Source: Streptomyces sp. WM6378
Lineage (GTDB): Bacteria; Actinomycetota; Actinomycetes; Streptomycetales; Streptomycetaceae
Reading direction: 5' to 3'
DNA length: 64,000 bases
NCBI RefSeq assembly: GCF_001279695.1
Contig: NZ_LGDD01000306.1
Coordinates: 186,001 to 250,000, forward strand
Position numbers and translations under genes: made by a program. Shown here one piece after another: positions 3,925-30,645 of the stretch. The notes beneath the pieces were generated by a model. It searched no databases, was not told the DNA's origin, and was given only the letters and a program-made list of their open reading frames with translations. Every line of letters begins with the position of its first letter. Position 1 is the stretch's first letter.

Positions 3925-5193
3925 TCAGGCCGACTCCTGGAGGCTCAGCAGCGACGTCACCAGCTCGTCCACCTCCTCCGGGGTGTTGTACAGGGCGAAG
4001 GAGGCGCGGGCCGCCGACTCCAGGCCGTAGTGGGCCAGGGCCGGCTGCGCGCAGTGGTGGCCGGCCCGGATCGCGATGCCGTCGCGGTCCAGCCAGGAGG
4101 CGATCGCCGCCGGGTCGTGGCCCGCCATGGTGAACGTGAGCACCGCGATCCGGCCGGGCGCCGACCCCAGGATCTCCAGACCCGGCACCATCGCCATGGC
4201 CTGCTGCGCGTACGCCGTGAGCCCGTCCTCGTACGCCGCGACCGCGGCCCGGTCGAAGGACGTGAACCAGTTCAGCGCGGCGAGCAGCCCGACCACCCCC
4301 GCGATGTTGCCGGTGCCGGCCTCCATGAGGTGCGGGACCGGGGCGAAGGTGGTGCGCTCGAAGGACACCGAGTCGATCATGTTGCCGCCGCCCTGCCAGG
4401 GCCGCAGACCCGCGAGGACCTCCGGCTTGACGTAGAGCGCGCCGATGCCCGTCGGGGCGTACAGCTTGTGTCCGGAGAAGGCGTAGAAGTCGGCGTCCAG
4501 GTCCGTCACGTCGACGGGCATGTGGGCGACCGCCTGCGCGCCGTCGACCAGCACCTTCGCCCCGTAGCGGTGTGCGAGCGCGGTCATCTCGCGCACCGGC
4601 GGAACCGTGCCGAGCACGTTCGAGGCCTGGCTGATCGCGACGAGCTGGGTGCGCGAGGAGAGCAGGTCGGCGTACGCGTTCTGGTCGATCTGCCCGTCCG
4701 GGAGGAGCGGGACCGGGACGACCCGTGCCCGGGTCTCCTTGGCGATCAACTGCCAAGGGACGATGTCCGAATGGTGCTCAAGGACCGGTACGAGGATGTC
4801 GTCGCCGGGGCCCAGATTCGCCCGCCCCCAGCTCTGCGCGACCAGGTTGACGGCCTCCGTCGTGCCCCGTACGAACACGATGGAATCGGGGGACGGCGCG
4901 CCCAGGAAGTCCGCGACGGCCGCCCGGCCCGCCTCGTACATCTCGGTGGCCTCGCGGGCCATGGTGTGCGCGCCCCGGTGGATGTTGGAGTTCGACGCGC
5001 TGTAGTAGCCGGCGAGCGCCTCGATGACCTGGCGGGGTTTCTGGGTGGTGGCCGCGTTGTCGAGCCAGACCAGCGGATGCCCGTTGACCGTGCGGTGCAG
5101 GATCGGGAAGTCCTTGCGCGCAGACTCCGGTGTGAACCCGCCCGGTTGGCGGCCCGGCAGAGCGGTCCGTTCCGTGACGTCAGGAGTAGTCAT
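3925..5193 (-). CDS. sufS: SufS-type cysteine desulfurase, probable encapsulin cargo
   Basis: A PLP enzyme of 422 residues that removes sulfur from L-cysteine to form alanine and an enzyme persulfide. Visible features are LDNAATTQKPRQVIEAL near residue 44, the cofactor-binding Asp217 in VDGAQA, the Schiff-base Lys243 in SGHKLYAPTG, and the persulfide-forming Cys381 in RAGHHCAQP, which makes it group II (SufS-like). The first 25 or so residues (up to FTPESARKDF) are Pro/Gly-rich and probably disordered. The start overlaps the end of the encapsulin gene by 14 bases, which argues for translational coupling and co-assembly. Cysteine desulfurases are known cargo of family 2 encapsulins. The long disordered N-terminal extension seen in many such cargo enzymes is absent here, so how it is loaded is open. 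No sufBCDU genes are adjacent, which argues against a general Fe-S role. Confidence 0.93.
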   Translation of the reverse strand: MTTPDVTERTALPGRQPGGFTPESARKDFPILHRTVNGHPLVWLDNAATTQKPRQVIEALAGYYSASNSNIHRGAHTMAREATEMYEAGRAAVADFLGAPSPDSIVFVRGTTEAVNLVAQSWGRANLGPGDDILVPVLEHHSDIVPWQLIAKETRARVVPVPLLPDGQIDQNAYADLLSSRTQLVAISQASNVLGTVPPVREMTALAHRYGAKVLVDGAQAVAHMPVDVTDLDADFYAFSGHKLYAPTGIGALYVKPEVLAGLRPWQGGGNMIDSVSFERTTFAPVPHLMEAGTGNIAGVVGLLAALNWFTSFDRAAVAAYEDGLTAYAQQAMAMVPGLEILGSAPGRIAVLTFTMAGHDPAAIASWLDRDGIAIRAGHHCAQPALAHYGLESAARASFALYNTPEEVDELVTSLLSLQESA

Positions 5194-6577
5194 GGTAGTT
5201 GGACACCTCGACGTTCTGCAGCACCGCGATCGCGTCCTCCACCAGGACGGCCGTGTTGAAGTACGCGGTCATCAGGTACGAGGTGATGCCCTTCTGGTCG
5301 ACCCCCATGTTCCGCATGGACAGGCCCGGTTCGACCTCGTCGGGCACCCCGGCCGGGCGCAGTCCGACCACGCCCTGCTCGGCCTCGCCGGTGCGCATGA
5401 GCAGGATCTCCGTGGTGCCGACGCTGCCGCCGCCGGAGAACCTGACCTTGTCGGAGGGCAGCAGCGGCACCCCGCGCCAGGTGAGCAGCGGGCTGCCGAA
5501 GCGGGTGTCGGTCACCGGCGGCACACCCCGCCGGGTGCACTCGCGGCCGAACGCGGCTATCGCCTTCGGGTGCGCGACGAAGAACCCCGGCTGCTTCCAC
5601 ACCTTGGCGAGCAGCTCGTCGAGGTCGTCGGGGGTCGGCGACCCGGTGCGGGACTGCACGCGCTGACCTGCGGACACGTTGTTCAGAAGGCCGAACTCGG
5701 GGTGGTTGAGCAGGGCCGCCTCCTGCCGCTCGCGCAGCGCCTGCACCGTCAGGTTGGACTGGGCGCGGGTCTGGTCGATCGGCCCGTTGTAGAGGTCGGC
5801 GACCCGGGTGTGGACGCGCAACACTGTTTGGGCCAATGTCATGTGGTACTCGCGCGGCGCGTCCTCGTAGTCGACGTACGTGCCGGGCAGATCGACCTCG
5901 CCGACGTGCCCGGAGCTGAGGTCGATGGGCGCCTCCGAGCCCGGCTTGACTCCGTCGCCCGAGGTGAACGCGTCCACGGCGGTGCGCAACTGCTCGCTGC
6001 GGTCGGCGAGTTGGGCGAGCGCGGCGCGGTCGGCGCACAGGGCGGTGCCGGGGGTGAGCGCCTTGACGCGGTACGGCATCGGCTCGCCGCGGGTCCACGC
6101 GTCGAGGTCGAAGAACTGGCCGTCGCCCGCGACTTCGAGCAGTGCGTCCTCGCCGTACCGGCCGGTGACGCGCTTCTCCGCGCGGCCCTGCACCAGGATC
6201 CACAGCCGGTCGGCCGGGTCGCCCTCCTGCATGAGGACCTGGCCCGCGTCGAACGTCACCGGCGTGAAGGCACCCGCGAGTTCGCCGAGCAGCGCGTCCT
6301 CGCAGTCGCACAAGTAGGGCAGCTCGCGAAGGTCGCCCGGCATGACGCGCGGGGTTCCGCCCTCGTCGTACGTGCTGATCCGGTCGTCGCCCAGGACGAA
6401 CGAGCGGCGGCGGTTGACCCGGTAGACGCCGGATTCGACATCCACCCAGGGCAGGGCGCGCAGCAGATAACGCGGGGTGATCCCGCGCATTTGCGGAACG
6501 GTCTTGGTGGCGGTGGCGAGTTGGCGCGCCGTGTCCGGGCTGAGACTCATCCGCTGGTTATTCACGGGAACGTTCAC
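5180..6577 (-). CDS. Family 2 encapsulin shell protein with cyclic-nucleotide-binding-like domain (2B type)
   Basis: Predicted to self-assemble into an HK97-fold protein nanocompartment. With the GTG start at 6577 the protein has 465 residues; GAGGAGG five bases upstream fixes this start and removes a 55-residue non-homologous extension. Order of parts: N-arm (1-90, TKTVPQMRGITPRYLLRALP), a CRP-like cNMP-binding domain (about 95-205, FTPVTFDAGQVLMQEGD... ILVQGRAEKRV), and the shell fold (about 225-465) ending GVDQKGITSYLMTAYFNTAV and NVEVSNYHDYS, characteristic of family 2 shells. The inserted cNMP domain defines type 2B. The cassette around FFDLDAWTRGEPMPYR does not show an obvious canonical cAMP-binding Arg, so ligand binding is uncertain. 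It forms a two-gene operon with sufS. Confidence 0.88.
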   Translation of the reverse strand: MNVPVNNQRMSLSPDTARQLATATKTVPQMRGITPRYLLRALPWVDVESGVYRVNRRRSFVLGDDRISTYDEGGTPRVMPGDLRELPYLCDCEDALLGELAGAFTPVTFDAGQVLMQEGDPADRLWILVQGRAEKRVTGRYGEDALLEVAGDGQFFDLDAWTRGEPMPYRVKALTPGTALCADRAALAQLADRSEQLRTAVDAFTSGDGVKPGSEAPIDLSSGHVGEVDLPGTYVDYEDAPREYHMTLAQTVLRVHTRVADLYNGPIDQTRAQSNLTVQALRERQEAALLNHPEFGLLNNVSAGQRVQSRTGSPTPDDLDELLAKVWKQPGFFVAHPKAIAAFGRECTRRGVPPVTDTRFGSPLLTWRGVPLLPSDKVRFSGGGSVGTTEILLMRTGEAEQGVVGLRPAGVPDEVEPGLSMRNMGVDQKGITSYLMTAYFNTAVLVEDAIAVLQNVEVSNYHDYS

Positions 6578-6686
6578 CGGTACCTCCTCGATGGGGCTGG
6601 ACGAGGACCGATCGTGTTCCTGGAATAACGGCACCACAAGGGGCATGTGCCAGCGGCAGGCCGGAAATGGCGCTGAATAGGCCGCG

Positions 6687-6715
6687 AAAAACCGCCCCGG
6701 CGCAGGTCGGGGCGG
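6687..6715 (-). terminator. Intrinsic terminator after the ROK regulator gene
   Basis: Read on the minus strand, CCGCCCCG, an eight-base loop and CGGGGCGG are followed directly by TTTTT. It stands 132 bases after the ROK stop and 110 bases before the encapsulin start, so the encapsulin promoter must lie in the remaining 110 bases. Confidence 0.75.
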
Positions 6716-6846
6716 ATCCGGCTCACGGCATAAGAGACTCAATTCAAACTGGTTGTACCTGCTATTAGATCCTGAAAGCCCTGCTTATGGAATGCTGAAT
6801 CCGGTCGAATTCTGGGGCCTGCGGCGAGAATTCGCCGGAGAAAGGA

Positions 6847-8160
6847 TCAGCGGGCCGCGCGTTCCTCCACCGAGGTGCGCCAGCCCGCTCTTTCGGTGGG
6901 CGTCTCCGGTTCGGCCGCGGGTGCGCGGCGGCCGCCGCGGGCGAAGAAGCCGGCGAGGGGGAGGGTGGCCGCGCCCACCGTGACGGCGTCCGGGCCGAGC
7001 CGGCCGAGTTCGATGGTGACGCGTTCCGCCGGGTGGCGCAGGGCGTAAGCGGTGGCGTGCCGGCGCACCGACTCCAGGATGTGCGGTCCGAGTTGGAGCC
7101 CGGCCCAGCCGCCGATCAGGATGCGCTCCGGGTTGTAGAGGTTGATCAGGTCGGACAGGCCCGCGCCCAGGTATTCGGCGGTCTCCTCAAGGACGGCGAG
7201 GGCGACCGGGCTGGCGGCGACCCCCTTCTCCTCGGGGTACGCGGCCGCGAGGAGGGCCGTCACCGCTGTCTCCTCGGCGGTCCCGGGCGGCAGTTCGGCC
7301 CCTGCTTCCTGCCAGCGCTGGATGATCGCCTCGGCGCCCGCGTACGCCTCCAGGCAGCCGAGCGCCCCGCACCGGCAGCGCCGGCCGCGGACACGCACGG
7401 TGGTGTGGCCCCACTCGGCGGCGCTGCTGTGCGCGCCGCCGTAGATCGCGCCGCCCGTCACGATGCAGGCGCCGACGCCGGAGCCGAACAGGACGATCAC
7501 CGCGTCGGATGCGCCCCGGCCGCCGCCGAACCACATCTCGGCCTGGCCGAGCGTCTTGGCGCCGTTCTCGATGAAATACCTTGTGCTGGGCGGAAGGTGG
7601 AGGGATTCGCGCAGCAGGGACTCCAGCGGCACCGCGTCCCAGCCGATGGTCTGGCCGTGCACCACGGCCCCCGCCGGGGAGCTCCGGTCGACGATGCCCG
7701 GCACGCCGACGCCCACGCCGAGCAGCCGCCGCGGATCGAGGCCGCTCTCGCCCAGCACGGCGGCCACGCCCTCGCGGATGCGGCCGACGATGTGTCCGAC
7801 GTCGTAGCCACCCGCGTCCAACGACAGCTCGGTACGGGCGAGTTCGCGCAGGGCGAGGTCGAACAGCTCCACCCTGACCCGGGTCTCGCCGACGTCCACA
7901 CCGATCAGATGGCCGCTGTCCGGGGCGACCCGCAGCAGGGTGCGCGGCCTGCCGCCGTCGGAGTCCACCACCCCGGCATCCTCAAGGAGGCCGTCGGCGG
8001 CGAGCTCCGCCACGACATTGCTGATGGAACCCGAGCTCAGCCCGGTGGCGGGGCCGAGTGCCTGGCGGCTCATCGGGCCGTCGAAGTACAGCCGTCGCAA
8101 TACCGCGCCCCGGTTGTCCCGACGCAGGTCGCGGACGGTCCTGCTGTTCGGTGTGGCCAT
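6847..8160 (-). CDS. ROK family transcriptional regulator
   Basis: A 437-residue regulator with an N-terminal winged helix (about 10-75; LSSGSISNVVAELAADGLLE is the recognition region) and a ROK sugar-kinase-like domain. The kinase part has the phosphate-binding GVDVGETRVRVELF segment, GSGVGACIVTGGAIYGG, and the zinc motif CRCGALGCLEAYAG. Such proteins repress or activate sugar-utilisation genes in response to a sugar or sugar phosphate. GGGAGG seven bases before the ATG is a clear ribosome site. The upstream region has an 11-bp tandem repeat and a CTTAA...TTAAG inverted repeat that could be its own operator. No sugar transport operon is adjacent; the alpha-galactosidase 5 kb away is the nearest sugar gene, and any link is speculative. 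Confidence 0.9.
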   Translation of the reverse strand: MATPNSRTVRDLRRDNRGAVLRRLYFDGPMSRQALGPATGLSSGSISNVVAELAADGLLEDAGVVDSDGGRPRTLLRVAPDSGHLIGVDVGETRVRVELFDLALRELARTELSLDAGGYDVGHIVGRIREGVAAVLGESGLDPRRLLGVGVGVPGIVDRSSPAGAVVHGQTIGWDAVPLESLLRESLHLPPSTRYFIENGAKTLGQAEMWFGGGRGASDAVIVLFGSGVGACIVTGGAIYGGAHSSAAEWGHTTVRVRGRRCRCGALGCLEAYAGAEAIIQRWQEAGAELPPGTAEETAVTALLAAAYPEEKGVAASPVALAVLEETAEYLGAGLSDLINLYNPERILIGGWAGLQLGPHILESVRRHATAYALRHPAERVTIELGRLGPDAVTVGAATLPLAGFFARGGRRAPAAEPETPTERAGWRTSVEERAAR

Positions 8161-8223
8161 GTGGCTCCCTCCCTGCGTGCAACATACCGGTGCGAGAGCC
8201 TGTGCCGCGCTCTTGTCCTGCGT

Positions 8224-8275
8224 CTTAACTCAGGCCATAGATTAAGGCATGAGGTAGGCATGAGGTAGGCATGAG
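8224..8275. repeat. 11-bp tandem repeat and inverted repeat upstream of the ROK gene
   Basis: GCATGAGGTAG occurs at 8247 and 8258, followed by a partial third copy GCATGAG at 8269. Just upstream CTTAA (8224-8228) and TTAAG (8242-8246) form an inverted repeat with a 13-base spacer. A period of 11 bp puts the copies on the same helix face, as expected for tandem binding sites of a regulator. Confidence 0.55.
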
Positions 8276-8311
8276 AGAGCCGCGTAAGCCCCAACTGACC
8301 TTCTGTCAGGG

Positions 8312-8800
8312 CTAGTTGATCGGATCCGGAGGCTTGCCGCCCGCGTGCGCGACGAGGCGTTCGAGGAACGCCTGCTGGCCCTGGACGAGCAGGGCGGCCG
8401 CGGCATCGGGGGAGAGCCAGGCGAAGCGGTCCATCTCGGGGAACTCGCGCACCGTGCCCGACCCCCGCGGCCACTCCATGGTGAACGTGCCCGGCACCGC
8501 GTCGGCCGGATCCAGATCCGCCTCGACCGCCCACACCGTCACGGTCTTGCCGCCGCGCTGGACGATCTCGCCCAGCGGCACGAGCGGGCCCTCGGACGGC
8601 GGCAGCCCCAGCTCCTCCTCGAACTCGCGCCGCGCCGCGGCCTCGGGCGCCTCCTCGGCGTCGTACTCACCCTTGGGGACCGACCAGGCGCCCGCGTCCC
8701 GCCCCGCGAAGAACGGCCCGCCCATGTGCCCCACGAGCACCTCGATGCCGTCCCCCACCCTGCGGTACAGCAGGAGCCCGGCGCTGCGTTTTCCGGCCAT
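8312..8800 (-). CDS. Nudix hydrolase
   Basis: A 162-residue protein expected to cleave nucleoside-diphosphate-linked compounds with a divalent metal. The complete Nudix box starts at GEYDAEE, continues through APEAAAR and ends REFEEELGL, fitting G-x5-E-x7-REUXEEXGU. The start MAGKRSAGLLLYRR aligns with the usual first strand (SAGLLLYR) of the family, so the long upstream reading frame is not coding. The protein ends in a family-typical helix (FLERLVAHAGG). No strong ribosome site precedes the ATG. The best-known relatives act on diadenosine polyphosphates or as housecleaning enzymes; the substrate cannot be read from the sequence. Confidence 0.88.
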   Translation of the reverse strand: MAGKRSAGLLLYRRVGDGIEVLVGHMGGPFFAGRDAGAWSVPKGEYDAEEAPEAAARREFEEELGLPPSEGPLVPLGEIVQRGGKTVTVWAVEADLDPADAVPGTFTMEWPRGSGTVREFPEMDRFAWLSPDAAAALLVQGQQAFLERLVAHAGGKPPDPIN

Positions 8801-8863
8801 GCCGCCAGTCTGCGGGTCCGCCGGGCGCGGCGCCACGGGGCGGCGGTACCGGGGGGCATCTAC

Positions 8864-9166
8864 GTGGTGACGGTGGTCCTCGGCGCGACGACGACCGGGG
8901 CGCTGATCGGCCCCGTCTCCTTCCACCGGATGCTGGCCGGGCGACGGCTGAAGCCGCAGACGGTGACCTGGGCGTCCCGGCTCACCGTCGTCGGCCTCGT
9001 TCTCCTCCTGTGCACGGTGGCCAGCTCCCTGCTGCTCATCCTGCGCGTCGCCCTGCACAGCGCGCTGGCACCCCGGCTGGTCGCGGGCGTCGTCTGCTGG
9101 TACGTCTGCTGCTGGTTCGTGCTGCCGGCCCTGGCCCGCAGGCGCCACCACGACCAGCCCTCCTAG
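8864..9166 (+). pseudogene. Truncated DUF6328 membrane protein gene
   Basis: About 100 codons encode the C-terminal part of a DUF6328 membrane protein: YVVTVVLGATTTGALIGPVS, then FHRMLAGRRLKPQ, then two strongly hydrophobic segments (LTVVGLVLLLCTVASSLLLI and LVAGVVCWYVCCWFVLPA). Family members normally have about 140-160 residues with a first helix in a segment like 'GFLLTVAF' ahead of this point. That N-terminal third is missing; the sequence just upstream is already the start of the Nudix gene on the other strand. GTG at 8864 preceded by GGGGGG could still start a shortened protein. The coding pattern remains clean, so the truncation may be recent. Confidence 0.6.
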
Positions 9167-25057: not shown

Positions 25058-25731
25058 GCGCATTCCTCACGACGGCTCGGATCGATCTCCGCGAGGGTGC
25101 CAGCCGGCCGCCCCCCACAGCGCCGTTGCCATGAGGAGCTGACCAAGAACGGGGACGCGTTCCCCGGTGCGGGTGGCTTCCGTTCGGCCAGGAGGCCCAA
25201 GTGCGAGCATCTGAGCGGACGTTTCGCTGAACGGCACGGCCCGCCGGTCCGTATGGGACGGCGAGGGCCCCGACGGCCGCGATCGCGGCAGGGCCCGGAA
25301 AACGGGGGCACCCGCAGCCCCGGACCGAACGGCCCGGCGCATTCGGAAGTGGCGTCTGTTTCCACGCTGCCCGAAAACGTTCCGCGCCTTGGCATTTCGG
25401 CAGCTGGTGTTGATACGGACCACGCATTTATCCAAAAGGCCCGGTCGGGCGAAAATGCGGACGTTCCCGTTCCCTGGTTGACACCGTCAAGTACCCACCG
25501 GATGCTGTGGATTGGGTCGGTGAACGGGGGAATCTGGTCTTCGGGCATCGTCGGCGGCTGGTCGTCGAAAATCGTCGACGACTTCGTGAGACCGCCCCGA
25601 TCCGCCATTCGCGTATTCATGGCAATTCACTCGTGCCCACCAGGGAAATCCCTACCGGCGCCGCACCCGTGCCCCATTGCGGGCGCCTCGCGCGATTCCA
25701 TGCGCCACGACCGATGAGAGGAGGGGAATCC
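25058..25731. other. Long intergenic region before the peptide/M50/TPR locus, with candidate promoter
   Basis: About 670 bases with lower G+C than its surroundings. No convincing gene is present; the minus-strand frame starting at 25620 has no ribosome site and weak third-position G/C. TTGACA (25478-25483) and GATGCT (25501-25506) are 17 bases apart and form a candidate promoter for the downstream genes, leaving a leader of about 220 bases. The -35 overlaps a palindrome TTGAC-ACC-GTCAA (25478-25490), a possible operator. Confidence 0.4.
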
Positions 25732-25809
25732 ATGAAGAAGATGTCGATCCGCAAGGCCGGTCCGATCCGCCTGACGACCGCCTGCTACTACCTGTGCGCC
25801 CAGCAGTGA
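25732..25809 (+). CDS. 25-residue peptide with CYYLC tail, candidate RiPP precursor or signal peptide
   Basis: The peptide starts MKKMSIRKAGPIRLTTA and ends CYYLCAQQ. GAGGAGGGG lies about six to eight bases before the ATG, one of the strongest ribosome sites in the window. The first half is basic (KK, RK, R), like a leader; the last ten residues hold two Cys spaced by Tyr-Tyr-Leu, the type of core seen in modified peptides. A hairpin follows the stop, then come a membrane M50 metalloprotease with an RRE-like domain and a TPR protein in the same direction. No radical-SAM enzyme, cyclodehydratase, P450 or ABC exporter is next to it. I do not recognise a described family. A disulfide-bonded or unmodified signalling peptide is the alternative. 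Confidence 0.65.
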   Translation: MKKMSIRKAGPIRLTTACYYLCAQQ

Positions 25810-25818
25810 CATCCGGTC

Positions 25819-25849
25819 GGAGCCGGGTCCTCACCGGGGGTCCGGCTCC
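25819..25849 (+). terminator. Hairpin between the peptide gene and the metalloprotease gene
   Basis: GGAGCCGG (25819-25826) pairs perfectly with CCGGCTCC (25842-25849). Lying ten bases after the peptide stop, it could act as a partial terminator or mRNA stabiliser that raises peptide synthesis over that of the downstream genes, as seen in many peptide operons. Confidence 0.5.
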
Positions 25850-25894
25850 GGCTCCGCCTCGGTTCGCGGAGCAGAACAGAAGGGTGCGCACCGC

Positions 25895-27106
25895 ATGAGC
25901 GCGCTGGTTCCCGGCGGCGGCCCCACGGTCCGCCTCCACACACTCACGATGGTGGCCGAGCCCGACGGCGTCATGGTCGGGCGGCCCGACATCGGCTCGT
26001 ACGCGGTCTTTCCCGAAGAAGGCGCGCAGGTCCTGCGGCTGCTCGGCGCCGGGGTCCCGGTCCCCGACGCCGCCGCCTGGTACGAGCGGACCTGCGGGGA
26101 GCGCCTCGACATGGCCGACTTCCTGGCGGCCCTCGAAGACCTTCGATTTCTGCGCGGCGAGGCGGCACAGGAATTGGTGCTGGGGCCGATCCGCTGGCAG
26201 CGTCTGGGCGCGGCCGCGTTCTCCCGGCCCGCCTGGTTCCTCTACGCCACGCTGACGGCGGCCGCCGTCGCCGCGATGGTCCGGGCGCCGGAACTGAGGC
26301 CCTCGTACCGCAATCTGTTCTTCACCGGCCACATTTCGCTGATCCCCATCGCGCTGTTCGTGACGGTGATCCCGTGCATTTTGATCCACGAGGGATTTCA
26401 TACCCTCGCAGGGCGCAGGCTCGGGCTCCCCTCCACGCTCGGGATCGGCCGACGGCTCTACTACCTGGTCGCCGAGACCCGCCTCGACTCCCTGCTCAGC
26501 GTCGAAAGGCGCCGACGCTATCTGCCGTTCCTCGCCGGAATGCTCGCCGACGTCGTCCTCTTTTCGATGCTCACTCTTCTTTCGGTGGAACTGGCCGGTC
26601 ACGGAATTCCCGCCTGGATCCACAAGTTCTGCCTCGCGGTCGCCTTCACCTGTGTGGTGCGGCTCATCTGGCAGCTCATGTTCTATCTGGAGACCGACCT
26701 CTACTACGTCCTGAACAACGCGTTGCGCTGTACGGATGTGCAGGGCGCCGCCCGCTTCCGTCTCCGGAGCGGATTTCGGTGGCTGCTGCGCCGCGAACCG
26801 CCCCGGCCGGACACGCAATGGTCGGACCGCGACCGGGCGATGGCGCGCTGGTACGCGCCGGTCCTCGTGTCCGGCTACGGCTTCTCGCTGGGCAGCCTCG
26901 CGTGGGCGGCGATCCCTACCGCCTGGCACTTCTGGTCGACGGCCGTCGACCGCTTCACCAACCCGCTGACTACGACGTCCGACCTCGTGGACGCCGCGGG
27001 ATTCGTGGCCATCACCTCGTTCCAGATCGGCCTGCTGATCTTCGTCACGCTGCGGGACCGGCGTGCCCGGACCCGGAAGAACTCACGCCAAGGAGCACTG
27101 ACATGA
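25895..27106 (+). CDS. Membrane M50-type metalloprotease with N-terminal PqqD/RRE-like domain
   Basis: A 403-residue polytopic membrane protein. Residues 12-90 (VRLHTLTMVAEPDGVMVGRP ... FLAALEDLRFLRG) look like a winged-helix PqqD/RiPP-recognition-like domain. A transmembrane zinc protease follows: HEGFH (His165, Glu166, His169) in ILIHEGFHTLAGRRLG is the HExxH motif within a helix, and Asp219 (GMLADVVLF) or Asp268 (YLETDLYYVLNNAL) could supply the third ligand. About six to eight hydrophobic helices are visible. The architecture is like YydH-type and other peptide-linked M50 proteins. It probably processes or exports the 25-residue peptide just upstream. Its stop overlaps the TPR gene start in ATGA, so the two are made together. 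Confidence 0.78.
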   Translation: MSALVPGGGPTVRLHTLTMVAEPDGVMVGRPDIGSYAVFPEEGAQVLRLLGAGVPVPDAAAWYERTCGERLDMADFLAALEDLRFLRGEAAQELVLGPIRWQRLGAAAFSRPAWFLYATLTAAAVAAMVRAPELRPSYRNLFFTGHISLIPIALFVTVIPCILIHEGFHTLAGRRLGLPSTLGIGRRLYYLVAETRLDSLLSVERRRRYLPFLAGMLADVVLFSMLTLLSVELAGHGIPAWIHKFCLAVAFTCVVRLIWQLMFYLETDLYYVLNNALRCTDVQGAARFRLRSGFRWLLRREPPRPDTQWSDRDRAMARWYAPVLVSGYGFSLGSLAWAAIPTAWHFWSTAVDRFTNPLTTTSDLVDAAGFVAITSFQIGLLIFVTLRDRRARTRKNSRQGALT

Positions 27107-29265
27107 CCTCGCCCCGCCACTACTGGGCCGACGCGGAAGCCCCGGCGTCCGACGGACCGCCTGCCGCGCACCTCACCGTCCCCTGCCACCGCCGGCTGCG
27201 CGGACCGTACACGGCGGGCGGCACCCTGCTGCGCCACATTGTTCCCGAACTCATCCCGGAACACGGTGAGTTGGTGGCCCGCCGGGCGACCGAGGTCATC
27301 GCGCTCGCCCCGGAGGTCACCCCGCTCGTCCCTCAGGCGCCGCAGACCCTCACCAACCTCGCGGGCGTCAAGGAGCGCACCCGGTTCTACCCGGCGACCC
27401 GCGCGCTGCGGCTCGCCCACGGCGCCGCCGAACTCCTCATGGACTGGGCCCGTGTCAAACATCCCGGGGGAGTCGTCGTCGCCTTCCGCGACCTGGACGG
27501 GGCCGACCCCACCGACCGCGACTTCGTCGCCGTCCTGCTGCGCCGCTGCGACCCCGCCGAGCTGACCGTGGTCGTCGAGCACGAGGGCCCGGCCGACGAC
27601 GCGCTCGGGCGGGCGCTGAAGAACCATGCGACCCGGGTGCCGAAGCGGCCGGAGCGCGCGGAACTTCGGACAGGGACGGCCGACGCCGCGCAGCAGTTCA
27701 TCGACTCCGACGGCACAAGCCGCGACCCCGCGCTCCTCGCCGCGTACGCGAAGCTCGAACCCGAGGAGCGGGCCCGGCGACACACCGCCCGAGCCGCCGA
27801 GCTGGCCGCGTTCGACGAGCCGACCCTGCGGCACGGCGCCATCCCGTACCACCTGGAACACGGCACCGACCCGGCGGGCGCGGGTCTCGCCGCCCTGTCC
27901 GAAGCCGTCAACTCCTGCTTCGCGCTCGGCTTCTACGAGGCCGTGATCGAGCTCGCGCTGCGCGGCCGCCGGCTCATCCCCGTCGGCCAGGACTCGATGA
28001 CGTACCGCACGCTCACCCACAAGACCGGCGCCTGCCTGTCCTATCTGGGGCGCGGCGACGAGGCCGTCGGCTACTTCGACGAGATACGGCGGATGACCAC
28101 CGACGCCGACGCGCACATGGGAACCAGCTATCTCATGGCGATGCTCTACACCCGCTTCCTGCCCAAGGGCGCCCACGACGAGGACCTGGCGCTCGCCTGG
28201 GTCAACACCGCGATCGGGATCGCCGACGTCCACCCCGACCCCGAACGACGGGTCCTGGTCAGGGCGTTCATGCGCAACGCGCGCGCCCTCGTCGAGCTGC
28301 ACCGGGGCAACGTCGACGGTTCGCTCGCCCTCGTGGAGGAGGCGATCGCCATCACCGACGCCGACTTCGGGCCCGACGAGCAACTCCTGCACCGTTCCGT
28401 GCTGTTGTACAACCGCGCCCAGGTGCGTGGCGCGCGCGGCGACCACACCGCCTCGATCGCCGACTACGACGAGGTGATCCGCCGCGACCCGGACTACGGC
28501 GACTACTACTTCGAGCGGGCCGCGCAGCGCCGCGCCGTGGGCCTGCACCACGAGGCGCTCGCGGACTACGCCGCCGCGATCCGGCTGACCCCGCCGTTCC
28601 ACGAGGCCCACTTCAACCGCGCCGACCTGCTGCGCGAACTCGGCCGGGACGAGGAGGCGCTGCGGGACCTGGACTACGCGCTCGAAGTGGAGCCGAGCCA
28701 CCTCGAATCGCTCGTGCACCGCGCCGACCTGCTCCTGGCGCGCGGCGAGCACGAGCGGGCCGCCGCCGACATCGAGCAGGGCCTCGCGCTCGACCCCGGA
28801 AACTCCCAACTCCTGGCCGCACAGGGCTCGTTGCTCGCCGAGTCCGGTGACACGGCAGGCGCCTACGCCAGCTACTCGGCGGCCCTGCGCACCGAGCCCG
28901 GCTTCGTCGCGGCCTGGGCCAACCGCGCCGTCCTCGCCCACACGGCGGGCCGCCCCGCGCTGGCCGTATCCGACCTCGACGAGGCGATCCGGCTCTTGGA
29001 CGACGGCGAACTACGGGCCAACCGCGCCATCGCCCTGCAGGACCTCGGCGAGCACGAACGCGCCCTGGCGGACCTCGACATCGCGGTGGCGGCCCTCGCC
29101 GGACAGGACCCCGACGTCCTCTACCGGCGCGGGCTCAGCCGCCTGGCCCTGCGCGACGGCGAGGGCGCGCTCGCCGACTGGCGGGCACACCTCGCCGCCT
29201 ACGGCCCGGACGGAACCTCCCCGTACGCCAAGGAGATCCAGTTGCGCACCGACGCCCTCAGCTGA
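27103..29265 (+). CDS. Large TPR protein of the peptide/M50 locus
   Basis: A 720-residue soluble protein. The N-terminal 200 residues (CHRRLRGPYTAGGTLLRHIV ... ATRALRLAHGAAELLMDWAR) are not assignable by eye but look globular, with an alternating strand/helix part VVVAFRDLDGADPTDRDFVA resembling a degenerate P-loop/STAND-like or Rossmann core without Walker A. After a helical linker, about 430-715 is a run of classical TPR units, e.g. YYFERAAQRRAVGLHHEALA, AHFNRADLLRELGRDEEALR and SLVHRADLLLARGEHERAAA. TPR proteins of this kind bind peptides or partners; with the peptide and protease upstream it may be the receptor or scaffold. AAGGAG precedes the ATG. It ends 8 bases inside the convergent ThrRS-like gene. 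Confidence 0.8.
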   Translation: MTSPRHYWADAEAPASDGPPAAHLTVPCHRRLRGPYTAGGTLLRHIVPELIPEHGELVARRATEVIALAPEVTPLVPQAPQTLTNLAGVKERTRFYPATRALRLAHGAAELLMDWARVKHPGGVVVAFRDLDGADPTDRDFVAVLLRRCDPAELTVVVEHEGPADDALGRALKNHATRVPKRPERAELRTGTADAAQQFIDSDGTSRDPALLAAYAKLEPEERARRHTARAAELAAFDEPTLRHGAIPYHLEHGTDPAGAGLAALSEAVNSCFALGFYEAVIELALRGRRLIPVGQDSMTYRTLTHKTGACLSYLGRGDEAVGYFDEIRRMTTDADAHMGTSYLMAMLYTRFLPKGAHDEDLALAWVNTAIGIADVHPDPERRVLVRAFMRNARALVELHRGNVDGSLALVEEAIAITDADFGPDEQLLHRSVLLYNRAQVRGARGDHTASIADYDEVIRRDPDYGDYYFERAAQRRAVGLHHEALADYAAAIRLTPPFHEAHFNRADLLRELGRDEEALRDLDYALEVEPSHLESLVHRADLLLARGEHERAAADIEQGLALDPGNSQLLAAQGSLLAESGDTAGAYASYSAALRTEPGFVAAWANRAVLAHTAGRPALAVSDLDEAIRLLDDGELRANRAIALQDLGEHERALADLDIAVAALAGQDPDVLYRRGLSRLALRDGEGALADWRAHLAAYGPDGTSPYAKEIQLRTDALS

Positions 29266-30496
29266 TGGCCAACTCGCCCGCCTCGTCCCAGAGTTCGGGG
29301 CTCCGCGCAGCCACGAAGGCGCCGATGCGCCGGAGGAGTTCCGCGGCCGGAAGGGCGTCCGGGCGGCGGCCGTCGCGCAGCCGCGGGGCGACCTCGCCCG
29401 CCGCAGCCTCCCGGGCGCCGATCACCGCCTGGTACGGGACGAGCCGGGCGGCCCGGATGCGGGCGCCCAGGGAGCCCTGTTCCGGTCCGGCGAGCTCGGC
29501 CCGCAGGCCGTCGGCGACGGCCCGCGCCACGAGCTCGGCGGCCTGGTTCACCTCGGCCTCGGAGAGGGGCACCACCACCAGCTGAACGGGCGCCAGCCAG
29601 GCGGGGAAAGCGCCGCCGTGGAGCTCGATGAGATGGGCGACGGCGCGTTCCATGCTGCCGATGATGCTGCGGTGGACCATCACCGGCCGGTGCTTGCCGC
29701 CGTCCGGCCCGATGTAGTACAGATCGAACCGCTCGGGCTGATGGAAGTCGACCTGCACGGTGGACAGGGTCGCCTCGCGGCCCGCCGCGTCGGCGATCTG
29801 CACATCGATCTTCGGGCCGTAGAACGCGGCCTCGCCCTCGACGGACTCGTACGGCACCCCACTGGCGTCGAGCACCTCGGTCAGCAGGGCGGCGGCCCGC
29901 TCCCACATCTCGGCGCCCGCCACGTACTTGCCGCCCGGGCCGGGCAGCGAGAGGCGGTAGCGGGCCGGGCGGATGCCAAGGGTCGCGTACGCGCGGCCGA
30001 TCAGGTCGAGCGCGGCCCGCGCCTCCTCGGCGACCTGCTCCAGGGTGCAGAAGATGTGGGCGTCGTTGAGCTGGATCGCCCGCACCCGGGTCAGACCGCC
30101 TAGCACACCGGAGAGCTCCGAGCGGTACATCCCGCCCAACTCGGCCATGCGAAGCGGGAGTTCACGGTAGCTGTGGGCGCGTGAGCGGTAGATCAGGGCG
30201 TGGTGGGGGCACAGGCTCGGGCGCAGCACCACCTGCTCCGCGCCCAGGTCCATCGGCGGGAACATGTCCTCGCTGTAGTGCGACCAGTGCCCGGAGATTT
30301 CGTACAACTCGCGCTTGCCGAGCACCGGCGAGTACACGTGCCGGTATCCGGCCCGCCGCTCGGTCTCGCGGACGTACTCCTCCAGGGCATGCCGCACGGC
30401 CGCGCCGTCCGGCAGCCAGTACGGCAGTCCGGCCCCCATCAGCGGGTCGGTGTCGAACAGGTCGAGTTCGCGGCCGAGTTTGCGGTGGTCGTGCAC
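29258..30496 (-). CDS. thrS: Short threonyl-tRNA synthetase without TGS and editing domains
   Basis: A 412-residue class II synthetase. It starts directly at the catalytic domain (HRKLGRELDLFDTDPLMGAG), then has motif 2 region, motif 3 near RSIIGSMERAVAHLIE, and a C-terminal anticodon-binding domain (APVQLVVVPLSEAEVNQAAE). The three zinc ligands that select threonine are kept: Cys in LRPSLCPHHALIY, His in LNDAHIFCT and His in PVMVHRSI. The N-terminal TGS and editing domains (about 240 residues in E. coli ThrRS) are missing, so mischarged Ser cannot be removed in cis. GTG start with GAGGAG six bases upstream. A leader peptide with three Thr codons and a terminator precede it, so it is probably made under threonyl-tRNA shortage. 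It may be a stress or antibiotic-resistance paralogue. Confidence 0.9.
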   Translation of the reverse strand: MHDHRKLGRELDLFDTDPLMGAGLPYWLPDGAAVRHALEEYVRETERRAGYRHVYSPVLGKRELYEISGHWSHYSEDMFPPMDLGAEQVVLRPSLCPHHALIYRSRAHSYRELPLRMAELGGMYRSELSGVLGGLTRVRAIQLNDAHIFCTLEQVAEEARAALDLIGRAYATLGIRPARYRLSLPGPGGKYVAGAEMWERAAALLTEVLDASGVPYESVEGEAAFYGPKIDVQIADAAGREATLSTVQVDFHQPERFDLYYIGPDGGKHRPVMVHRSIIGSMERAVAHLIELHGGAFPAWLAPVQLVVVPLSEAEVNQAAELVARAVADGLRAELAGPEQGSLGARIRAARLVPYQAVIGAREAAAGEVAPRLRDGRRPDALPAAELLRRIGAFVAARSPELWDEAGELAIS

Positions 30497-30538
30497 GGGG
30501 GGCTCCTCGCGGTCTTCGTGGGACGGGTGACCGCACGG

Positions 30539-30571
30539 AAGAGCCCCGGGGCCACTCGCCCCGGGGCTCTT
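30539..30571 (-). terminator. Attenuator hairpin in the ThrRS leader
   Basis: AAGAGCCCCGGGGC and GCCCCGGGGCTCTT form a perfect 14-bp stem with a five-base loop, 14 bases downstream of the leader-peptide stop and about 40 bases upstream of the ThrRS start. The 3' flank has only two Us, normal for Streptomyces. It is placed exactly where a ribosome-controlled terminator should be. Confidence 0.8.
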
Positions 30572-30585
30572 GACGTACACAGCTG

Positions 30586-30645
30586 TCAGCGCGCCGGGAC
30601 ACTCTCCGGCGTCGTCGTCCACTGCACAGCCGCACGCTTGCTCAT
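30586..30645 (-). CDS. Threonine-rich leader peptide of the ThrRS attenuator
   Basis: A 19-residue reading frame, MSKRAAVQWTTTPESVPAR, with three successive ACG threonine codons in the middle. It lies between the presumed promoter and the terminator hairpin. When charged tRNA-Thr is scarce the ribosome would stall at Thr-Thr-Thr, changing folding of the following RNA and preventing termination. This layout is established for amino-acid biosynthesis operons in actinobacteria; here it is inferred from sequence only. The weak point is a modest ribosome site (CACCGG) before the ATG. Confidence 0.75.
   Translation of the reverse strand: MSKRAAVQWTTTPESVPAR

Follow-up and report, generated by a model that had tools for sequence, protein, structure and literature searches.

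A small peptide gene, an RRE-M50 protease gene and a TPR gene form a conserved unit in Streptomyces sp. WM6378 and relatives: a candidate RiPP-type pathway

Streptomyces sp. WM6378 carries a gene of only 25 codons upstream of genes for a membrane protease and a tetratricopeptide repeat (TPR) protein. Does this tiny gene encode the precursor of a peptide product, and what might its neighbours do with it? The locus lies in a stretch of 64,000 nucleotides (contig NZ_LGDD01000306.1, positions 186,001 to 250,000; hereafter the window), where direct reading of the sequence gave the order, 5' to 3', of peptide gene, hairpin, protease gene and TPR gene. An earlier note on this DNA had proposed that the three genes form one peptide-processing and sensing unit, or a unit making a ribosomally synthesised and post-translationally modified peptide (RiPP). 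Of this proposal, the conserved unit itself stood, as did a RiPP recognition element (RRE) fold and a site-2-protease fold with an invariant HExxH motif; processing, modification and sensing are what we infer from them. We consider it somewhat probable that the locus is a compact RiPP-type pathway, with a precursor, an RRE-guided protease, flavin-linked core chemistry and core binding by the TPR protein.

The peptide, protease and TPR genes form a conserved unit. The protease family comprised 717 proteins (E <= 0.001) among 7998 scored candidates. Contig scanning found 66 loci. The analysis used 64 of them (L004-L067) and set aside L068 and L069, both fragmentary. In 62 of the 64, the gene directly downstream of the protease gene encodes a TPR homologue, and the two exceptions are Paenibacillus loci; three of the 62 (L012, L035 and L060) have a TPR reading frame that looks broken. 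In 60 of the 62, a peptide gene whose leader is conserved occupied the same place as in the window. In the other two, the peptide has a core-like end and an unrecognisable leader (L004) or the contig begins inside the peptide gene (L053). The gene set occurs in four phyla (Actinomycetota, Cyanobacteriota, Myxococcota and Bacillota). Among 392 Streptomyces genomes, in each of which the best few candidates were scored, 54 had a protease match, and 20 of these fell in a close subfamily, delimited at 358 bits or above once the score table had been inspected. The TPR profile (E <= 1e-60) matched 21 of the 392 genomes, namely the same 20 and one distant relative; the match was split in two pieces in G527 and contained one TGA each in G446 and G665. 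Peptide genes were present in 19 of the 20 close-subfamily genomes, and the contig of the 20th (L096) is cut at the protease. That relative is the TPR protein of G630 (27-37%), alone among the TPR matches in having no protease; the 10 kb read there contained neither a protease nor a peptide match. The protease profile matched 4 genomes of a wider phylum sample of 296. The co-occurrence suggested by the earlier note was therefore found in 60 of 62 loci, and a search for the protease/TPR pair without a small peptide gene missed the whole gene only in L053, L096 and L004, for the reasons given above.

The window peptide gene (ATG at 25732, stop at 25807-25809, plus strand) had been described as a tiny gene with a very strong ribosome site, and this is correct: GAGAGGAGGGG lies directly 5' of the start, with the ribosome-binding site at 25716..25726 (+). 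The 25-residue peptide, MKKMSIRKAGPIRLTTACYYLCAQQ, encoded at 25732..25809, was divided into the leader MKKMSIRKAGPIRL and the core TTACYYLCAQQ, a split placed at the conserved leader motif and not at a mapped cleavage site. The whole set held 68 distinct peptides with 62 distinct cores, after one chance match (L069) was dropped. As expected of RiPP precursors, a conserved 13-residue leader motif is followed by variable cores. Leader position -12 is K or R and position -9 is V or I in all 66 leaders long enough, and position -8 is R in 65. The leader is charged and has no Tyr or Cys (0/68), and the short, nearly uncharged core contains both in all 62 cases. Decoys held both residues far less often (0/62 and 1/62 in shifted frames, 4/62 on the reverse strand and 680/12600 in random stretches). 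The core of a further peptide (L135) also has both, and of the 64 distinct cores whose locus has a TPR match, broken copies (L070, L012, L035 and L060) included, 63 hold Tyr and Cys.

These peptide genes are more than chance reading frames. Searched in six frames over the 64 loci and the window, in frames ending within 40 codons, the strict leader motif occurred only on the protease strand and only upstream; a laxer motif applied to all sequences gave the single chance match in L069. Differences in leader DNA concentrate at third codon positions (6368 vs 4079 and 1873, over 1206 non-independent pairs differing at 14 or fewer positions). The CYYLC ending emphasised previously is indeed present in the window peptide, but it is a local core and not a family motif. 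The presence of a single Cys in 25 of 62 cores led us to reject a disulfide loop as general core chemistry, and an Agr-like thiolactone was set aside (C-terminal Cys in 12 of 68 peptides). In L051, L055, L057, L061 and L064, between 2 and 5 almost identical peptide genes stand in tandem, spaced by about 235 bp in most arrays and by 300 bp in L064; Nostoc-type loci have up to five. The genome from which the window comes has a second operon copy (L070; contig C106, approximately 5000-7450, minus strand) with the peptide MKKIVVRKTGSIRLTAPCQTHYNIFAF; in this copy the frames for protease and TPR protein appear to be broken.

The hairpin noted after the peptide gene was confirmed at 25818..25850 (+), with a 15-bp stem, a 3-base loop and no T-run (fold z -2.79). 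Over 61 loci, the first 90 bases 3' of the peptide gene had a mean z of -3.18 and a median of -2.85 (60 dinucleotide shuffles per locus), and z was below -1.5 in 55. The hairpin probably raises the amount of precursor relative to enzyme.

The protease gene (25895..27106, +) encodes 403 residues and was identified as an RRE-fused site-2-type (M50) membrane protease from the reading frame, profile, alignment and fold. The PqqD/RRE-like N-terminus described earlier was borne out at fold level: residues 12-90 (25928..26164, +) form three strands and then three helices in the predicted structure, and fold comparison matched them to the RRE, the leader-recognition domain of RiPP pathways. The closest RRE structures were leader-bound lasso peptide B1 proteins; unlike lasso systems, the protease here is of the M50 type and no lasso cyclase was seen. 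The site-2-protease domain spans residues 145-341 (26327..26917, +). It contains the HEGFH motif that had been read in the membrane protein (residues 165-169, 26387..26401, +), within helix 149-175, and a distal Asp, D268, in ETDLYYV (26696..26698, +), so that fold, helical HExxH and distal Asp together are those of a site-2 protease. H165, E166, H169, T267 and D268 are invariant in 48 aligned proteins. The HExxH helix appears to be inserted in the membrane, and D268 is probably the third zinc ligand. The 25-codon gene would thus give a precursor whose charged leader, free of Cys and Tyr, binds the protease's RRE, and the site-2-protease domain of this membrane protein would then remove the leader at the membrane from the short core with its Tyr and Cys. 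A defence-system identity was rejected (PADLOC did not match the protease, and its single weak match, to PrimPol, fell over the TPR repeats), as was a phage origin (0 matches in a phage collection).

What might happen to the core is suggested by genes beside the relatives. In 61 loci, window included, the sequence extends more than 700 bp past the TPR gene. In 30 of these, all among the 47 actinomycete loci, a PF01613 flavin reductase gene follows the TPR gene on the same strand at a distance of no more than 600 bp. Pfam confirmed 14 of the 14 reductases tested, reductase start and TPR stop overlap in at least nine loci, and L010, the nearest relative of the window copy, carries one. In one clade (L025, L026, L032, L038, L042, L052 and L066), a PF02441 flavoprotein gene lies divergently upstream of the peptide gene, as called by Pfam on four and tblastn on all seven (L025 225-821, L042 7023-7568, L066 7082-7618, L032 7099-7647 (-)). 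Cores end in Cys in all seven of these loci and in 4 of 53 other long loci (Fisher p 8.5e-7, kinship uncorrected); the sister locus L027 has no PF02441 flavoprotein and its core ends in NCA. LanD- and CypD-type enzymes are peptide-Cys decarboxylases. The flavoprotein resembles them in weak CypD matches and in adjoining cores with a terminal Cys, but in NCBIfam it is nearest to CoaBC-type Cys decarboxylase models, and none lies beside the window copy. By sequence it is a candidate peptide-Cys decarboxylase. A large regulator-like gene was also observed beside it in six of the seven loci (tblastn), with AAA_16 and LuxR-type GerE domains in the two analysed with Pfam.

Consequently, the absence of an obvious modifying enzyme, remarked on in the earlier note, holds beside the window copy but not for the family, and the chemistry need not be new, as that note had supposed. 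The flavin reductase in many relatives, and the Cys-decarboxylase-like flavoprotein in one clade, may modify the core, and Cys (perhaps Tyr) chemistry would then be flavin-linked. If the window copy uses such an enzyme, its gene must lie elsewhere. In the window, the place of the relatives' flavin reductase is occupied by a gene for a threonyl-tRNA synthetase (ThrRS)-like protein of 454 residues (29258-30622, -). Its thrS-model match starts at model position 165, so the usual N-terminal domains seem to be absent. This gene was rejected as a member of the system (0 tblastn matches in 64 loci).

Several observations weigh against the pathway proposed here. The window protease has no Pfam or NCBIfam match. 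A plasmid locus with leader and TPR gene (L139) has a core without Tyr and without Cys. Flavin reductase was found in 0 of 14 non-actinomycete loci with enough flank and at no place within window positions 15000-40000, and the genome's best flavin-reductase match is about 135 kb from the operon and 46% identical to that of L010. The CypD-family scores of the flavoprotein (20.4 and 28.4 bits) are far below the cut-off of 215, and its link with a C-terminal Cys counts as one event because the clade has one origin. Two loci (L107 and L111) have peptide and protease genes and no TPR gene. Leader binding, cleavage, modification and the part of the TPR protein are, moreover, all steps deduced from genes and predicted folds. 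The L139 peptide gene (4725-4898, +) is annotated as a hypothetical protein, and transposase genes flank the plasmid copy.

The TPR gene (27103..29265, +) starts within the protease stop (ATGA overlap at 27103-27106), a coupling present in many loci. The coupling and the length of 720 residues had been read correctly; the first 250 residues or so are, however, not TPR. This N-terminal region (approximately residues 1-256, 27103..27870, +) resembles a STAND/AAA_16 module without a P-loop, a by-eye reading of the alignment for a region barely covered in the fold comparison. PF13191 (AAA_16) was listed for P0135, P0157 and P0186, and the GxxxxGK[ST] P-loop of STAND ATPases was absent from the 16 of 37 alignment rows examined. 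In a model with a mean predicted local distance difference test score of 94.7, the superhelix (approximately residues 257-706, 27871..29220, +) matched numerous TPR proteins, including Rap and NprR; such matches are generic. With protease divergence held constant, core divergence correlated with TPR divergence (partial r 0.17-0.23, permutation p 0.0005), although partial Mantel tests can be over-generous and the effect in 150 matched columns was small (means of 0.15 for TPR and 0.08 for protease). With TPR held constant, the correlation of core with protease was -0.02 to -0.04. Core divergence therefore appears to track the TPR protein more than the protease. A conserved inner groove in the superhelix was rejected, since groove positions showed no special conservation (p 0.69). 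The co-translated TPR protein may bind the core as scaffold or receptor, and this is the weakest step of the pathway.

These data bear on other explanations. It is possible, if not the reading we prefer, that the core is set free as a peptide signal, either without modification or with oxidation only, and that the TPR protein is its intracellular receptor and the flavin genes are accessories. Core/TPR co-divergence fits this, as do the peptide receptors Rap and NprR among the fold matches and the lack of an adjoining flavin reductase in the window, cyanobacterial and myxobacterial copies. However, no DNA-binding or phosphatase-type output domain was found in the TPR protein with Pfam or NCBIfam, its fold matches are the generic ones described above, and flavin-enzyme genes accompany half of the loci, some overlapping the TPR stop; these genes make a RiPP unit likelier and an unmodified signal less likely. 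RRNPP peptide/TPR receptor systems (PMC10075063) differ from our unit, in which no DNA-binding domain was seen and an RRE-protease gene lies between the peptide and TPR genes. We are doubtful that the TPR protein serves the protease as adaptor or regulator and never meets the free core: ATGA coupling and the mutual correlation of leader, RRE and TPR distances (0.80 or more) favour this, but the corrected core divergence follows the TPR protein and not the protease, and L107 and L111 retain peptide and protease without it. Immunity of the producer against a self-toxic core is improbable; variable cores that co-diverge with the TPR protein would suit it, but toxicity is hypothetical and no exporter was noticed among the nearest genes, where transporters were not searched by profile. 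That the small gene serves for regulation, as a leader of the attenuator type, and makes no product, as a short reading frame and hairpin before an enzyme gene could suggest, is highly improbable given a hairpin without T-run, peptide conservation across four phyla, 2 to 5 tandem copies in several cyanobacterial loci and a leader-binding fold in the enzyme.

The RiPP-type pathway that we favour was also compared with known systems. Epipeptide and pearlin pathways have radical SAM enzymes and aminoacyl-tRNA ligases, respectively, as partners, and these were not seen near the present loci. Their proteases (EpeP and TglG/TmoG) are, like ours, membrane-bound M50 enzymes, reported to process the peptides (PMC10885120). 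In daptides, an RRE-dependent intramembrane peptidase is reported to remove the leader; this enzyme, MpaP, shares with our unit an RRE fused N-terminally to a site-2-type protease and short adjacent precursor genes (PMC10036551). Unlike the daptides described there, 0 of 62 cores here have a C-terminal Thr and the leader differs from ELExMEAP (PMC10036551). Furthermore, the window protease did not match the NCBIfam daptide_HExxH model at E <= 1, and BLASTP against two daptide proteases gave E 4.9 for one and no listed match for the other. TmcP of the TMcin pathway similarly has HExxH, a site-2-like fold and leader removal in the membrane, but it belongs to the DUF3267 family, the TMcin core has a transmembrane helix, and the text names no RRE or TPR (PMC13252029). 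Leader capture by the RRE, membrane cutting, flavin-linked chemistry on the core in many members and core handling by the TPR protein are proposed by analogy with the daptide, epipeptide and pearlin proteases. The main texts of RRE-Finder (PMC7470986) and of a 2025 RRE paper (PMC12710340) name neither M50 nor TPR, though their supplements may list them, and no description of a peptide/RRE-M50/TPR unit was found in titles and abstract openings. The pathway is apparently undescribed.

More distant RRE-M50 loci differ. Twelve of them had no TPR neighbour in 4-kb stretches, and three of six read with wider flanks adjoin ThiF-like genes. In L108, L109, L110 and the plasmid locus L140, a distant RRE-M50 subfamily lies directly 3' of genes for ThiF-like adenylyltransferases, which may mark a further peptide pathway. 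Two more of the six, both without a TPR gene, have peptide genes (L107, 7117-7194, -, and L111, 7174-7251, -) that encode the same leader type and cores with Cys and without Tyr; the inner unit is therefore peptide plus protease. In L065 (Paenibacillus), an RRE-M50 gene (7965-9149, +) overlaps an upstream gene for 377 residues (6835-7968, +) by four bases, and no TPR gene or matching peptide was seen.

One compact operon brings together a leader-reading domain, an intramembrane protease and a TPR protein in four phyla, joined by flavin enzymes in many actinomycetes. It offers a testable minimal model of RRE-guided proteolysis in the membrane and a clear chemical lead, in Tyr plus Cys and in the decarboxylase-like flavoprotein beside cores with a C-terminal Cys. 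It is also a candidate for peptide sensing in genera whose systems of this kind are poorly known. A bolder reading, rather unlikely at present, is a widespread signal class in which an RRE-guided intramembrane leader peptidase frees the core and a pseudo-STAND/TPR receptor reads a flavin-made redox modification of its Tyr and Cys; the two TPR-less loci with Cys and without Tyr are relevant to it. If true, it would mean modified-peptide communication across Actinomycetota, Cyanobacteriota, Myxococcota and Bacillota.

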